From: Jatrophihabitans telluris
GTDB taxonomy: Bacteria; Actinomycetota; Actinomycetes; Mycobacteriales; Jatrophihabitantaceae
Length of the DNA: 64,000 bases
Direction: 5' to 3'
Assembly: GCF_023516435.1 (NCBI RefSeq)
Contig: NZ_CP097332.1
Span: 2,914,001 to 2,978,000 of the forward strand
The notes below the pieces were generated by a model, which was given only the letters and a program-made list of their open reading frames with translations, did no database searches and was not told where the DNA came from. Made by a program: the position numbers and the translations under genes. Of the stretch, positions 25,220 to 38,042 are shown in pieces; the first letter of the stretch is position 1, and each line of letters starts with the position of its first letter.

Positions 25220-26956
25220 TCAGAGTTCGGTTCGTGTGAGCGTCGAGATTCGCCCGATCGCGTCCTGGACCGCACTGCCCAACTGTTCGGCCGACGCCCG
25301 CTGCTGGGCGGTCACCTCGCTGACCTCGGCGCTGGCCCGCTCGATGTCCGAGATGCCGCCCCCCATTTCCGCGATCACACCCGACATCGCCTCGGCCTGG
25401 GCCTCGAGTCGGCTGATTGTTTCGGCGATCTGAGTGGTGGAGCGGGCCGTGGTGGTGGCCAGTTCCTTGACCTCGGAGGCGACGACGCGAAAGCCGTCAC
25501 CGGCCGAACCGGCCCGCGCGGCCTCGATGGTGGCGTTGAGGGCAAGCAGGTTGGTCTGGGCGGCCACTGAGGCGATCAGCTCGGAAACGCCACGGACGTG
25601 GCGCAGGCTCTCGGTCAGCTCGCCGACCACTTGTCCTGCGCGATTGGCCTGTGTCACAAAGGATTCGGTGACCGCTTCGGTGTGCTCGACCCGGGAATCG
25701 ATGATGCCGGCGGACGCGCTGACGTGACCGGCCTGGGCCAGCACCTCGTCCAGTTCGGTCAATACCGACTCGGCGGTTTGGACCAGCCGCTGCTGGGCCT
25801 TGCCCCGGACGGCGGCCTCGGCTCGCTGCTGCTGCTCGGCCGAGTCCTGCAATTCCTGCTCGCGTTGCTGATGTTCCCGTTGCAGCGCCAGTTCCCGGTC
25901 CGAGAGTGCGTCCAGCATCGAATCAATTGCTCCGGCCAGCGCTCCGATGTCCCCCCGAGCCTTCGAATCGATCCGCAGCCGGTGGTCCCCGCTGGCCATG
26001 ATCTGTTCGGTGGTCTCGCGCAACGGACGGATCTTGCGGCGCACTGCGCGCCCGGCGAAGGCCACCGCAGCGGCAACCGCCAGCACAGCCGCGACCAGGG
26101 CATAGCCCAGCAGCTGGTGACTGAGATGCCCGGCGGCGCTGTGAATCGGCCGGGCCAGGCCGGCCTGCAGGGTGACGCTCTGTCCCGAGCCGGCGGGGAT
26201 GGTGATGTCCATGGCGGTCCTGCTGCCGCTGGTGAAGCTGACCGCGACCGCCAGGGTCCCGATGCTGCTGTTGAGCGATGACCGCTGCGCGACCTCCCCG
26301 GGCGCCGATGCCGCCACGCTCAGACCCAGCGACAACTGCTGGCTGAGCCTGCTGAGTTTGGCCGGGTTGAGGGCGCTGAGGAAGACCAGACCACCGGCCG
26401 GGTTGCCCGTGCCCGAGCTGGGATAGGCACCGAATCCGCAGTACAGATAAGGGAAAGCCTGTGCCGCCAGAACTCCGCAGGTGCTCTTGCCCGACTTGGC
26501 CTGGGGGTTCCACAGGCCCTTTAGTACCGCGGGGGTGGCCAGTTCGGAGGGCAGCGGCGTGTAGGCGGGACCACCAGCGAGGCCACCGACGCGAACAGTT
26601 CCGTCGAGTCCGAGGCCGAGTACCGCGTCCACACCGTAGGAGGCAGGCAGGGACGAGGGGGCGAAGTCGGCCGCGAAGGTCTGGCGATCACCGTTCTTGA
26701 CGTCGGAGTACGACCCGTCCCAGATCGCATTGGTCGAGCCGTAGTTGGCGAGCAGCTTGATCTCGTAGTCAAGGGCGAGCCGGACCCCCTGCGCGTCCTG
26801 CGCGACCTGCCGGGTCTCCAGATCGTCGAAGGTGGCCGAGGACAACCGGCCGACGCCCCAGACGCTCACGGCGGCCACGATCACCACGGCGAACAGGGAT
26901 GTGACGATTGCCACGATTGGTCGGGATTTTGGCGGTGCGCTCACGTCGGCACTCAT
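25220..26956 (-). CDS. Methyl-accepting chemotaxis protein with CHASE4-like sensor
   Basis: A 578-residue receptor. A membrane helix at about 13-36 is followed by a periplasmic domain of about 240 residues with the CHASE4-like NYGSTNAIWDGSYSDVKNGD start, a second helix near 283-305, a HAMP domain and the cytoplasmic signalling coiled coil. Its tip reads [19 protein letters not shown], the CheA/CheW contact. No che genes lie in this window, so it is an orphan receptor. A sigma-28-like promoter overlaps the annotated ATG; if used, translation may begin at GTG 26944 instead. The start is therefore uncertain by four codons. Confidence 0.9.
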   Translation of the reverse strand: MSADVSAPPKSRPIVAIVTSLFAVVIVAAVSVWGVGRLSSATFDDLETRQVAQDAQGVRLALDYEIKLLANYGSTNAIWDGSYSDVKNGDRQTFAADFAPSSLPASYGVDAVLGLGLDGTVRVGGLAGGPAYTPLPSELATPAVLKGLWNPQAKSGKSTCGVLAAQAFPYLYCGFGAYPSSGTGNPAGGLVFLSALNPAKLSRLSQQLSLGLSVAASAPGEVAQRSSLNSSIGTLAVAVSFTSGSRTAMDITIPAGSGQSVTLQAGLARPIHSAAGHLSHQLLGYALVAAVLAVAAAVAFAGRAVRRKIRPLRETTEQIMASGDHRLRIDSKARGDIGALAGAIDSMLDALSDRELALQREHQQREQELQDSAEQQQRAEAAVRGKAQQRLVQTAESVLTELDEVLAQAGHVSASAGIIDSRVEHTEAVTESFVTQANRAGQVVGELTESLRHVRGVSELIASVAAQTNLLALNATIEAARAGSAGDGFRVVASEVKELATTTARSTTQIAETISRLEAQAEAMSGVIAEMGGGISDIERASAEVSEVTAQQRASAEQLGSAVQDAIGRISTLTRTEL

Positions 26957-26979
26957 CGGCTTCAGGGCGCCCGACTTGA
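26955..26979 (-). promoter_or_regulatory. Sigma-28-like promoter of the CHASE4 chemoreceptor
   Basis: On the minus strand TCAA (26979-26976) is followed by exactly 15 bases and then GCCGATGA (from 26960). The motility-sigma consensus is TAAA-N15-GCCGATAA, so one -35 base and one late -10 base differ. The -10 overlaps the first possible ATG, and a GTG codon lies about eight bases past it, where transcription would start. The rest of the 200-base gap to the divergent gene at 27157 holds an unusual T-run at 27122-27128 and no gene. Confidence 0.5.
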
Positions 26980-33090: not shown

Positions 33091-33912
33091 TCAGTCGAGG
33101 TCGACCACCAGCGGGGCGTGGTCCGACGGTGCCTTCGGTGCGGCTCCCTTGCGAGCGTCACGGTCGACCCACACATCCGCGACCCGCTGCGCCAGCGCCG
33201 GATTCACCAGCGCGAGGTCGATTCGCATGCCGCGTCCCTTGGCGAAGCCCAGCATGCGCATCTCCCAGAAGGTGTAGGGCGGGCGCAGGTCATCATGATC
33301 GGCGGACGCGCGTGGGCTGAGATCGATCAGCGGCTCGTCCCCGGTGTCGGTCATCAGCGCGGTCACCGCCTGCCGTTCGGGCGCCGATACGTGAGTCAGT
33401 CCGTCGAAGGCGGTGATGTCCCAGACGTCGTCGTCGTGCGGGGCGACGTTGAAGTCACCAAGCAGTCCGAATCCCGTGTGCGCGCCGAACCGGGCCCGTT
33501 CGGTGGCGGCCTGCGCGCCCACAGCGGCCAGAAAGTCGAGCTTGTAGCGGTAATGCAGGTGTCCGACCTCCCGTCCGTTGGGGACGTAGAGCGACCACAG
33601 TCGAAGTCCGCCACAGGTGGCCCCGATCGCGCGGGGCTCGACCACGTCCTCGAACAGCGGTTGGGCGTCCAAGCCCCGGGTGACTGACTCAAGGCCGACC
33701 CGGGACAGGATCGCCACCCCGTTCCACCGTCCGTTGCCCAGGTGCGCGGACTCATATCCAAGCTCTGCGAAAGCATCCGCCGGCCAGGACTCGTCGGTGG
33801 CCTTGGTCTCCTGAGCGAGCAGGACGTCCGGTTGCCGGTCGGCGAGCCAGTCCACCATTCGGGGTAGCCGTGCCTTGGCCGAGTTGAGGTTCCACGAAGC
33901 GATGCGCACCAC
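33091..33912 (-). CDS. xthA: Exodeoxyribonuclease III
   Basis: A 273-residue AP endonuclease/exonuclease. Recognisable segments are ASWNLNSAKARLPRMVDWL, the metal-binding Glu in LLAQETKATDE, the LYVPNGR loop, LLGDFNVAPHDDD with catalytic Asp and Asn, and SDHAPLVVDLD with the catalytic Asp-His pair. It repairs abasic sites and 3'-blocked ends. It lies 36 bases upstream of zwf on the same strand and diverges from the chemoreceptor at 33983. Confidence 0.95.
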   Translation of the reverse strand: MVRIASWNLNSAKARLPRMVDWLADRQPDVLLAQETKATDESWPADAFAELGYESAHLGNGRWNGVAILSRVGLESVTRGLDAQPLFEDVVEPRAIGATCGGLRLWSLYVPNGREVGHLHYRYKLDFLAAVGAQAATERARFGAHTGFGLLGDFNVAPHDDDVWDITAFDGLTHVSAPERQAVTALMTDTGDEPLIDLSPRASADHDDLRPPYTFWEMRMLGFAKGRGMRIDLALVNPALAQRVADVWVDRDARKGAAPKAPSDHAPLVVDLD

Positions 33913-33928
33913 GGCAGTCTCCCATCAC

Positions 33929-33955
33929 TAAACCGGCCGCCGCCGTGGCCGATCG
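33929..33955 (+). promoter_or_regulatory. Sigma-28 (FliA/WhiG)-type promoter
   Basis: TAAA at 33929-33932, exactly 15 bases, then GCCGATCG at 33948-33955. This fits the motility/WhiG-class consensus TAAA-N15-GCCGATAA at all positions but the last two. Transcription would start near 33962, 20 bases before the GTG start of the chemoreceptor, leaving room for its AAGGGGGG ribosome binding site. Confidence 0.75.
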
Positions 33956-33982
33956 GACACCCAGTCGCTAAGGGGGGCTTGC

Positions 33983-35575
33983 GTGTCCGCGCTGAAGAAA
34001 TCCGGTCTTGGTTCGTTCCTGGACAACCGCTCGTTGCTGGTCAAGATGCTCGCCGCGGTCGGGGTGGCCCTTTTCGCCGCCGCTGCCATCACCTGGGTGT
34101 CCGTCGCCTCCATGAACTCGATCCGCACCCGGTCGGCCGCCGCGTCCAGCCAGGCCATGGCCGGTGAGCGGGCCCTGGGCGACTTCCGGGAGAGCGTCGC
34201 GAAGGTGACCGGCGACAGCCTCGCCAGTTCGATTCCGGCCTACGCATCCGCCGGGCTGCAGGCCATGCCCGGTGACATCAAGGCCGCCCAGGACGCGGTC
34301 GCCGGCCTCACCGTCGCGTTGCGCGGCACCAGTGGGGAACCCGCCGCCGCCGCGGCCACCACGGCCTGGAAGAACCTCGCGGCCTTCAACAGCTCCGCCA
34401 AGAAGCCGACGAGCGAGAGCGAGGGTCAGGCGATCGTCACCGAGTACAACTCTCTGATGGCCGCTCTCGGCAGGGCCGAGGCCGCCGCCCGGACCGCTGT
34501 CGACCAACTCGTCGCCGACACGAACGGGCACAGCCACGCCCGCCAGAACAGCGCGGTCCGTACCGTCGTGCTGGCCTTCGTCCTCGGCAGCCTCATCTCC
34601 CTCGGCCTGGCGCTGGTCGTCGCCCGGCGGGTCCGGGGCAACCTCATCAGGGTCGGCGCCGTGGCCGAGGGCATGGCCGCGGGTCAACTGACCCGGCGCA
34701 CCGGCTTGGTGAGCACGGACGAGGTCGGCACCATGGCCGCCGCGCTGGATCGGGCGACCGAGCAGTTGCAGCGCGACTTCTCCCAGGTCTCGGTCAACGC
34801 CGGCAACTTGGCCAGCGCCGCAACCGGTCTCGCCCACGCCGCGGCCAGCGCCGCGGGCTCGGTCGAGCAGGCCTCCGGCAAATCGGGGCTCGTGGCCACC
34901 GAGGCGCAGACGGTGTCCAGCGACGTCCAGACCATGGCCAGCGCCGGTGAGCAGATGGCCGCCTCCATCCGTGAGATCGGTCGCAACGCCGCCGACGCCA
35001 CGCAGACCGCCGCGCGGGCCGTCGACATCGTCAACACCACGAACGCCACGATCACCCGGTTGGGCACCTCGTCCTCGCAGATCGGCGACGTCGTGAAGGT
35101 CATCACGACTATCGCCGAGCAGACGAACCTGCTCGCCCTCAACGCGACCATCGAGGCCGCCCGGGCCGGCGATGCCGGTAAGGGCTTTGCCGTGGTCGCC
35201 GGTGAGGTGAAGGACCTGGCCCGCGAGACGGCCAAGGCCACCGAGGACATCACGCGGCGTGTGGACGCCATCCAGGCCGACACGACCGGGGCCGTCATGG
35301 CGATCACCGAGTTCAACTCGATCATCGAGAACATCAACCGGTTCCAGCTGACCATCGCTTCTGCGGTCGAGGAACAGTCCTCCACCACCGATGACATCAA
35401 CCGCACGCTCAACTCGGCCGCGGACAGCTCCAGCCAGATCGCGGCGTCGATCACCGACATCGCCGAAGCGACCCAGCAAACCGCTTCGGTGGTCGGCGAG
35501 GCCAGCGCCGCGGCGGCCGAGGTGTCGCAGCTGTCCAACGAGCTGACGTCCCTGGTAGGCCGCTTCCAGCTCTAA
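33983..35575 (+). CDS. Methyl-accepting chemotaxis protein
   Basis: A 530-residue receptor. A membrane helix near 20-42, a short helical periplasmic domain of about 140 residues (four-helix-bundle type), a second helix near 190-212, HAMP, and a signalling domain with the tip [32 protein letters not shown]. The conserved tip indicates a working CheA/CheW contact. No che genes are nearby. GTG at 33983 is set by the upstream AAGGGGGG. Its ligand cannot be predicted. Confidence 0.93.
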
Positions 35576-35610
35576 CCCGCCCTTCTCCCGTCTCCTCTCC
35601 TCTCCTCTCC

Positions 35611-35673
35611 GGCTTTCGCGGCCCGAATAATCGCAAAACCCCGTCGTGGGTGAGTATTCGGGCCGCGAAAGCC
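35611..35673. terminator. Long inverted repeat between convergent genes
   Basis: A perfect 19-bp inverted repeat, GGCTTTCGCGGCCCGAATA at 35611-35629 and its complement at 35655-35673, with a 25-base loop. It separates the chemoreceptor from the convergent GH65 gene and touches the GH65 stop codon. The preceding 35580-35610 is a pyrimidine tract of repeated TCTCC. Confidence 0.8.
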
Positions 35674-38042
35674 TAGGAGGGGGAGGTGGGGGTGGGGGTG
35701 GGGGCGCGGCCGGCGGGCTGGGTTGGCCGATCGGTGAGCGGATGGATGGGCGGGACGGCCAGTTCGACCGGGTCCTGCGACGTCACCGTGAACGGCTGCC
35801 CGTGATGGTGCAGGTGCAGGGTCACGTCCACCCCGTCCTCCACTACATAGCGAGCCGCGTCCGGACCGATCGTGACGCGGACCTTGGCCGCCTGCCAGCG
35901 CACCGTGAACGACAGGCCGGTCAGGGCCGGCGGCAACCGGGGCGCGAAGCTCAGCTGACCGGCGTGATCCCGCATTCCCCCGTAGCCGCAGACCAAACCT
36001 AGCCACGACCCGGCCAGCGACGCGACGTGGACCCCGTCGCGGGTGTTGTGCTCCAGATCGTGCAGATCCATCAGTGCTGCCTCGCGGAGATACTCGTGGG
36101 CGAGCTCCAACTGACCGACCTCGGCGGCGATGACCGCTTGCGTGCAGGCCGACAAGGACGAATCCCGGACGGTGATCTGTTCGTAATACGCGAACGCCCT
36201 GGCCTTGTCCTCGGCCGTGAACGAGTCACCGCACCAGTGCATGGCCAGGATCAGGTCGGCCTGCTTGACGACCTGCTTGCGGTAGATGTCGAAGTACGGT
36301 GCGTGCAGCAGCAGCGGATAACCACCGTCGCGATCCGTGGCCTCGAAATCCCAGCGCTCGTGGGCGTTGTAGCCGCGGTCCTGTTCCGGCAGACCCGTCC
36401 GGGCGTCGACCGGGATCGCCACCACCTCGGCCGCCTGCCGCCAGGACGCGATCTCCTCGGCACTCACCGTCAATGCGGCCGCCTCATCGGGCCACCGCTG
36501 CGCGAGGTCGGCGGCGTAGCGCAGATTCCGAGCGGCCGTGAGGTTGGTATAGGTGTTGTCATCGGCGATGGCGCTGTATTCGTCGGGGCCGGTGACGCCA
36601 TCGATGTGGAACGCGCCGTCGGCGCCGATGTGCCCGAGCGCACGCCATAGTCGTGCGGTCTCCACCAGCAACGGCAGCGCACACTCGCGAGCGAAGGCGT
36701 CATCGCCGGTCCAGCGCACCAGCCGGTCGGCCGCCAGCGCGATATCGGCGTTGATGTGGAAGGCGGCGGTGCCGGCCGGCCAGTACGCGCTGCACTCCTG
36801 GCCCCGGATGGTCCGCCAGGGAAAGGCCGCGCCTTGCAGGTTGAGGGTGCGGGCCCGCTCCAGGGCCAGGTCCATTGTGGAATGGCGCCACCGCAGCGCG
36901 TCCATAGCCGCGCGGGGAGCCGTCGCGGCGAGCACCGGCAGCACGTAGGTCTCGGTGTCCCAGAACGCGTGGCCGTCGTACCCAGGCCCGGTCAACCCCT
37001 TTGCCGGGATCGCGCGCTGTTCGGCGCGGGCCCCGGCCTGCAGGACGTGGAACAGCCCGAAGCGCACCGCCTGCTGAATGGACTCATCGCCCTCGACCTG
37101 GACGTCGGCGCCGTCCCAGAATTCCTGCAGGTACTCGCTCTGCTCGACGAGCAGTTCGTCCCAGCCGGTGTGCACGGCGGCCGAGAGTGCGGCATCGACC
37201 TGATCGCGCAACGCCGCCACCGAGCGCTGCGACGACCAGCCGTAGGAGACGAACTTGGTCAGGGTCAGGCGCTGCCCGGGTTGCAGGCGCGTCCCGACGG
37301 TCGTGCGGGCGAAGGCCTTCTCGACATAGGTGTGCAGGTCGGGATCTGTGTCAGCCGCCACCACATGGTCCATGGCCGCGGCCATCCGCAGGGCCGAGGT
37401 CCGGGTGTGGTGGATGAGCGAGGAGCGACTGCCCGACGCGCTGTGCTGCTCGGCGACCAGAGGGCTCGTCAGGGCGGCTGCGACCCGAGGGTCGCCGGAC
37501 TGCCGTGGCACCTCCTCGTTGGCCACGAGTTCGGACTGGACGACGACCCGAGCCGCGTCGCCGATCGCCTCGACCTCGTACCGGACGGCCATGATCGCTC
37601 GTTGGGTGAAGGACACCAGCCGGGTCGACCGGACCCGGATCACCTGCCCGGCCGGCGAGGTCCACTCCACTACGCGGTGCAGCAATCCCTTGCGCAGGTC
37701 GAGGATTCGCTCGTGGTGCTCGATCGTGCCGTAGCGCAGGTCGAAGGGCTCGTCGTCGACGAGCAGCCGGATGAGCTTGCCGTTGGTCACGTTGACCACG
37801 GTCTGACCGGATTCCGGATAGCCGTACCCGGCCTCGGCGTAGGGAAGCGGACGGGTCTCGTAGAAGGAGTTCAGATAGCTGCCGGGCAGTCCGTTCGGAT
37901 CGCCCTCGTCCAGGTTGCCCCGAACGCCGATGTGCCCGTTGGACAGGGCGAAAATGGATTCGCTCTGGGCCAGTGTCGCCAGCTCGAAGCCGAGTTCGCG
38001 GATCACCCAGGGCTCGACCGGGTATCGCTCGTCGGTGATCAC
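35673..38042 (-). CDS. Glycoside hydrolase family 65 disaccharide phosphorylase
   Basis: A 789-residue GH65 protein of the usual length. The N-terminal beta-sandwich (ESIFALSNGHIGVRGNLDEGDPNGLPGSYLNSFYETRPL) is followed by the (alpha/alpha)6 domain with GYDGHAFWDTETYVLPVL and the catalytic Glu in DGVTGPDEYSA; AGSWLGLVCGYGGMRD lies near the phosphate site. Members phosphorolyse trehalose, maltose, kojibiose or nigerose to beta-glucose 1-phosphate. Which disaccharide is used cannot be told. It lies three bases after a beta-phosphoglucomutase gene, which handles exactly that product; the same pair occurs in mycobacteria. The C-terminus is an odd Pro/Thr tail. Confidence 0.92.
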   Translation of the reverse strand: MITDERYPVEPWVIRELGFELATLAQSESIFALSNGHIGVRGNLDEGDPNGLPGSYLNSFYETRPLPYAEAGYGYPESGQTVVNVTNGKLIRLLVDDEPFDLRYGTIEHHERILDLRKGLLHRVVEWTSPAGQVIRVRSTRLVSFTQRAIMAVRYEVEAIGDAARVVVQSELVANEEVPRQSGDPRVAAALTSPLVAEQHSASGSRSSLIHHTRTSALRMAAAMDHVVAADTDPDLHTYVEKAFARTTVGTRLQPGQRLTLTKFVSYGWSSQRSVAALRDQVDAALSAAVHTGWDELLVEQSEYLQEFWDGADVQVEGDESIQQAVRFGLFHVLQAGARAEQRAIPAKGLTGPGYDGHAFWDTETYVLPVLAATAPRAAMDALRWRHSTMDLALERARTLNLQGAAFPWRTIRGQECSAYWPAGTAAFHINADIALAADRLVRWTGDDAFARECALPLLVETARLWRALGHIGADGAFHIDGVTGPDEYSAIADDNTYTNLTAARNLRYAADLAQRWPDEAAALTVSAEEIASWRQAAEVVAIPVDARTGLPEQDRGYNAHERWDFEATDRDGGYPLLLHAPYFDIYRKQVVKQADLILAMHWCGDSFTAEDKARAFAYYEQITVRDSSLSACTQAVIAAEVGQLELAHEYLREAALMDLHDLEHNTRDGVHVASLAGSWLGLVCGYGGMRDHAGQLSFAPRLPPALTGLSFTVRWQAAKVRVTIGPDAARYVVEDGVDVTLHLHHHGQPFTVTSQDPVELAVPPIHPLTDRPTQPAGRAPTPTPTSPS

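Follow-up and report, generated by a model that had tools for sequence, protein, structure and literature searches.

Does the pair of short motifs in front of a chemoreceptor gene of Jatrophihabitans telluris act as a promoter and, if so, for which sigma factor? The locus was analysed within a stretch of 64,000 nucleotides, hereafter called the window, and in the 4,193,897-base genome to which it belongs (coordinates prefixed G000). The original prediction, made from the letters of the window, had described a textbook sigma-28 type promoter before an orphan receptor and had derived from it a FliA- or WhiG-like sigma factor and a motility or development regulon.

The promoter-like site and the receptor gene

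A pattern search of the window recovered TAAA-CCGGCCGCCGCCGTG-GCCGATCG at 33929-33955 on the plus strand, exactly as it had been described (TAAA-N15-GCCGATCG). The −35 element TAAA of this candidate FliA-type promoter occupies 33929..33932 (+) and the −10 element GCCGATCG lies 15 nt 3′ of it at 33948..33955 (+), a spacing that is enriched before genes for methyl-accepting chemotaxis proteins (MCPs). The general geometry of sigma-28 promoters puts the start of transcription about 7 nt after the −10 element. The predicted start is thus 33962 (+), the position also given in the original prediction. From the last base of the −10 element to the GTG start codon at 33983, 27 nt were measured, within the 20-30 bases that had been foreseen.

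The gene downstream (33983..35575, +) encodes a chemoreceptor of 530 aa, recognized by the PF00015 MCPsignal profile with 117 bits (cut-off 34.6). A Shine-Dalgarno-like sequence, AAGGGGGG, is located at 33970..33977 (+), just 5′ of the GTG, and the first residues of orthologues align with the receptor when this GTG is used as start. Upstream and divergently oriented, the list of open reading frames contains an endonuclease/exonuclease/phosphatase family gene (PF03372; 33091..33912, −), whose product reads like exodeoxyribonuclease III; the promoter site sits in the 70-base gap between this gene and the receptor. Directly 3′ of the receptor gene, positions 35604-35680 form an inverted repeat with 29-nt arms (86%).

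For flagellar sigma-28/FliA promoters, the available part of PMC8325347 gives the consensus hexamers TAAA and GCCGATAA. Compared with TAAA-N15-GCCGATAA, the site matches at 10 of 12 positions with the exact 15-nt spacing, the final two bases of the −10 element being CG where the consensus has AA; it falls within the two-mismatch rule of that paper, as far as the rule is given in the same part.

The exact core TAAA-N15-GCCGAT occurs once in the window. In 100 dinucleotide shuffles its mean count was 0.01 (one shuffle with a match), in line with the earlier view that a chance match is improbable. The fuller pattern with up to two mismatches was found eight times in the window against a shuffle mean of 3.67, and 2/100 shuffles reached eight. 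Two-mismatch matches are thus common, and what sets the site apart is its exact match. Their frequency lends something to the reading that the site is a chance or decayed match and that the receptor is driven by a housekeeping (SigA-type) promoter missed by the methods used, which we consider unlikely given an expectation of 0.01 for the exact match and its correct strand, distance and N15 spacing. No sigma-70-type site was seen in 33700-34100; shuffles predict none either, so that this says little.

In the whole genome, TAAA-N14-16-GCCGAT gave six matches versus one for the reversed control pattern, and in 3/6 the spacing was N15. All three of these, obtained by the genome scan that the original prediction had proposed, lie 5′ of a correctly oriented gene. 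The first is the site of the window receptor (27 nt to the start). The second, TAAA-N15-GCCGATTT (L227:11528-11554, −; G000:1249528-1249554), precedes the ATG at 1249453 of a type IV pilin gene by 74 nt, and the third (L226:2878-2904, +; G000:1391877-1391903) lies 38 or 44 nt before the nearest two ATGs of a DUF1800 gene. For the pilin and DUF1800 genes the longest open reading frame starts 5′ of the site, and these distances use a start picked by the analyst. The pattern TAAA-N14-16-SCCGATAA had 0 matches in the genome. Looser patterns were counted 182 times (THAD-N15-GCCGAW; reversed control 76) and 43 times (TMAD-N15-GYCGATSA; reversed control 1), but these counts were set aside as evidence because many similar matches fall inside called genes.

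The FliA-type sigma factor and the flagellar cluster

The genome was searched with the TIGR02479 FliA_WhiG profile, resulting in five matches. The best, at G000:3654013-3654948, scored 181.5 bits, below the curated cut-off of 189.6. It encodes a protein of 311 aa with sigma factor regions 2, 3 and 4 (PF04542, PF04539, PF04545), for which TIGR02479 is the best NCBIfam match, and it is flanked by flgK and neighbours on one side and by flagellin-fliD on the other. The FliA/WhiG-type sigma gene that had been predicted is therefore present, inside a flagellar cluster. Within this cluster flgK scored above its NCBIfam cut-off, and flagellin, fliD and a motB/motD-type protein below theirs. The flgN-like protein had no NCBIfam family match; translations and gene order were the basis for naming flgN, flgL, fliW, csrA and most of the remaining flagellar genes. 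Genes of the cheA, cheW, cheY and cheX types are also found in the genome.

Homologues of the FliA-type sigma in the eight relatives whose neighbourhood was fetched scored 174-192 bits with TIGR02479. Across relatives, matches to this profile score either 270-288 bits or about 160-192 bits. The higher class, which we assume to be WhiG-like, has no member in the genome of the window. Similarly, the WhiG equivalog NF004935 (cut-off 343) found no equivalog in this genome, the best candidate, the FliA-type sigma itself, reaching 150 bits, so of the two sigma types offered by the original prediction FliA stood and WhiG did not. The other four TIGR02479 matches were read as SigB-like (by NCBIfam) and as SigF-, SigA- and ECF-like (by inspection).

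One of these, the SigF-like protein (near G000:1.562 Mb), matches TIGR02479 with 132 bits, and it or a missed WhiG might use the site in a developmental or stress programme. We regard this as very improbable: at E <= 1e-45 a single protein of the genome matches TIGR02479, the 270-288-bit class is missing here, and sites of the same type occur 5′ of flagellar genes.

Sites at other receptors and at flagellar genes

Seven MCP genes were found in the genome, and under a loose criterion (T[AC]AN-N15-G[ACT]CGAT) 7/7 have a site near the start used. A spacing test was carried out with the pattern T[AC]AN-Ns-G[CT]CGAT fixed, s varied from 9 to 21 and the window receptor (33983) left out. At s=15, 5/6 receptors had a match; at the 12 other spacings, 0/6. 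In control genes of the same genome the N15 pattern was present in 2/101, and on the reverse strand in 5/101. Holding the −10 element to GCCGA[AT] at s=15 left 2/6 receptors and 3/101 control genes, and the loosest pattern gave 6/6 and 11/101. The start of one receptor (G000:2364731) was taken from the site itself; with this receptor dropped the result becomes 4/5, and 4/6 if it is scored as a miss. The start of the receptor 5′ of cheA was picked by eye.

One of these receptors also lies in the window. It combines CHASE4 and MCPsignal domains (PF05228, PF00015; 25220..26956, −) and is preceded by a second FliA-type site, TCAA-GTCGGGCGCCCTGAA-GCCGATGA, at 26953..26979 (−). Here the −10 element overlaps the ATG of the longest open reading frame, for which reason translation probably begins at an in-frame GTG (26944, 8 nt past the −10 element) or at a later codon; the mRNA of this receptor is perhaps leaderless. 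In two further receptors of the genome an in-frame GTG lies 5 nt past the −10 element.

Sites like that of the receptor were also located 5′ of flgB, flagellin, the flgN-like gene and a cheY-like gene in the genome of the window. In relatives, counted with no separate control, sites were found before flgB in 7/7 (68-76 nt; s=15 architecture), before flagellin in 6/7 (76-82 nt) and within 30 nt of the flgN-like gene in 3/8, against 0/8 for flgK, 0/8 for fliA and 1/7 for fliD. The flagellar promoters of the family prefer TCAA or TTAA followed by GTC or CTC (T[CT]AA-GTC). A matrix was built from 16 flagellar promoters of relatives. With its core columns 33929-33955 ranks 15th of 419,594 positions, and when the three bases that follow the −35 element are included it drops to 94th, since it lacks the GTC that the family prefers. 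The 26953-26979 site ranks first by the full matrix, shares first place with the site of the cheY-like gene by the core columns, and is the better match of the two sites in the window. The term textbook fits the general flagellar consensus; against that of the organism's own family the match is less clear. The receptor itself is one of seven in the genome, and its site is not the best in the window. A further scan of 184 kb placed 33929-33955 at the top, but its weights had been chosen manually with the site already in view, and it is descriptive only; the hits at ranks 5, 8 and 9 fall within called genes.

The ranks of 94 or 15, weaker than those of other sites, are the second point in favour of a chance or decayed match, and set against them is an architecture common to orthologues and other receptors. 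In two genomes of the same family, G017 and G022, receptor orthologues (62% identical) carry TCAT/TCAG-N15-GCCGAATG 33 nt 5′ of the ATG (2/2 close orthologues). No gene called in their surroundings reads like the exonuclease, and the site therefore seems to go with the receptor. A MAFFT alignment of the three orthologous upstream regions placed a gap within the spacer and was dropped.

Four family genomes together have 25 MCPs, of which 16 have a loose site. With T[AC]AN-Ns-G[CT]CGAT, s=15 gave 13/25, other spacings at most 2/25 and the reverse strand 3/25. A wider set comprised 98 MCP upstream regions from 80 named loci, three near-duplicates having been removed. In these, T[ACT]A[AGT]-Ns-GCCGA[TA] was found 17 times at s=15, five times at s=16, at most twice at any other spacing and 0 times on the reverse strand; at N15, neighbouring control genes gave 4/192 and their reverse strand 6/192. 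The 13 loci titled Blastococcus, Geodermatophilus, Modestobacter or Geodermatophilaceae contribute one of the 17. Receptors elsewhere seldom have the TAAA form (TAA[AG]-N15-GCCGAT in 1/98 MCP upstreams). Free motif finding by EM on the 98 regions returned equally strong motifs from reverse-strand and control sets and was replaced by the fixed-pattern spacing tests. The palindrome TCGAACGTAAGTTCGA, which we take to be SOS-box-like, was seen 5′ of the orthologous receptors at about L108 1360-1380 and at the matching place in L109.

Taken together, 33929-33955 is very probably a FliA (sigma-28) dependent promoter of the motility regulon, as judged from sequence. RNA polymerase with the FliA-like sigma (G000:3654013-3654948) would recognize TAAA and GCCGAT 15 nt apart and begin transcription near 33962. 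The mRNA would have a short leader and encode the 530-aa chemoreceptor that starts at 33983, and the receptor would be made together with the flagellar and chemotaxis genes. The motility half of the earlier regulon assignment is backed by the sites at receptors, flgB, flagellin, the flgN-like gene and the cheY-like gene and by those in relatives; nothing was found for the development half. On its own a chemoreceptor promoter of this kind is ordinary biology and what a specialist would expect. The analysis indicates that raw sequence can be enough to call a sigma-28 promoter, and it gives an initial outline of what is probably the FliA regulon of one actinobacterial family.

A FliA-type sigma and FlhA, and no MCP, were found in seven genomes of the same genus (G001-G004, G006-G008), all of them multi-contig assemblies. 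Chemotaxis may either have been gained in the genome of the window, with its seven MCPs, or have been lost in these relatives. The idea that the relatives keep FliA for pili only was ruled out by flagellar FlhA in 7/7 tested. In the available part of PMC10746217, 14/69 flagellated species are listed as lacking some feature in a section on chemosensory classes, and a figure legend marks species without a chemosensory system; flagellated actinobacteria of this kind have apparently been described already.

A possible wider regulon and comparison with known systems

The pilin at ATG 1249453 carries an N-methylation motif. Seventeen pilin loci were examined of 28 matches, and 9/17 have an upstream site of N15 spacing, which in seven of the nine lies 118-126 nt before a GFTLIE-type motif. 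Second or third tandem pilin copies had a site in 0/5, and three other pilin loci were also without one. The pilin site is kept in several relatives, some of them flagellated and with no chemoreceptor found. In addition, TCAA-N15-GCCGATGG (L022:3620-3646, +; G000:3693620-3693646) lies 39 nt before a PAS-GGDEF-EAL gene that directly follows flagellar genes.

Tentatively, swimming, sensing and surface attachment may come under a single FliA regulon, comprising flagellin, flgB, flgN, all seven dispersed receptors, the major type IV pilin, the GGDEF-EAL gene and the DUF1800 gene, with up to three receptor mRNAs leaderless (GTG 5-8 nt past the −10 element). Should the sites before the pilin and GGDEF-EAL genes prove genuine, a single sigma would serve both flagella and type IV pili here.

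As a separate observation, a repeat containing GCAACAAGGGCAACGTCAAC is scattered in the genome and forms runs with a 32-nt period at L020:12209-12324, L019:10096-10243, L021:17918-17969 and L160:1231-1314. Those at L020, L019 and L021 are intergenic, one being directly 5′ of flgB.

In E. coli and elsewhere, sigma-28/FliA promoters have a 15-nt spacer, and the present site resembles them in TAAA, spacer length, GCCGAT and position 5′ of chemoreceptor or flagellar genes. It differs in that the −10 element ends in CG, where theirs ends in AA, and the organism's own family prefers TCAA/TTAA with GTC/CTC. The available portions of PMC10733313 and PMC7682106 contain nothing on the promoter consensus.

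According to the part of PMC8325347 available, WhiG has the same consensus as flagellar promoters, and 12 of 20 consensus matches in Rubrobacter were upstream of mapped starts; WhiG control of type IV pili and of c-di-GMP enzyme genes was suggested there. The site described here shares with the WhiG promoters of Rubrobacter radiotolerans the same consensus at two mismatches or fewer, and pilus and c-di-GMP enzyme targets like those suggested for that organism are suspected here. The R. radiotolerans regulon is pilus-centred and under RsiG (PMC8325347, same part), whereas the sigma studied here is encoded in a flagellar cluster.

In Actinoplanes, WhiG-like flagellar sigmas direct both flagellar and type IV pilus genes (PMC8325347, same part). 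A wider regulon in J. telluris would extend this known flagella-pili theme and, if true, a sigma shared by flagella and pili would be a wider feature of the phylum, as comparison with Actinoplanes and Rubrobacter suggests (PMC8325347, in part). Finally, Actinoplanes missouriensis has three FliA-family sigmas tied to sporangia according to the available parts of PMC13293333 and PMC8325347, and in the genome studied here one FliA-type sigma was found.
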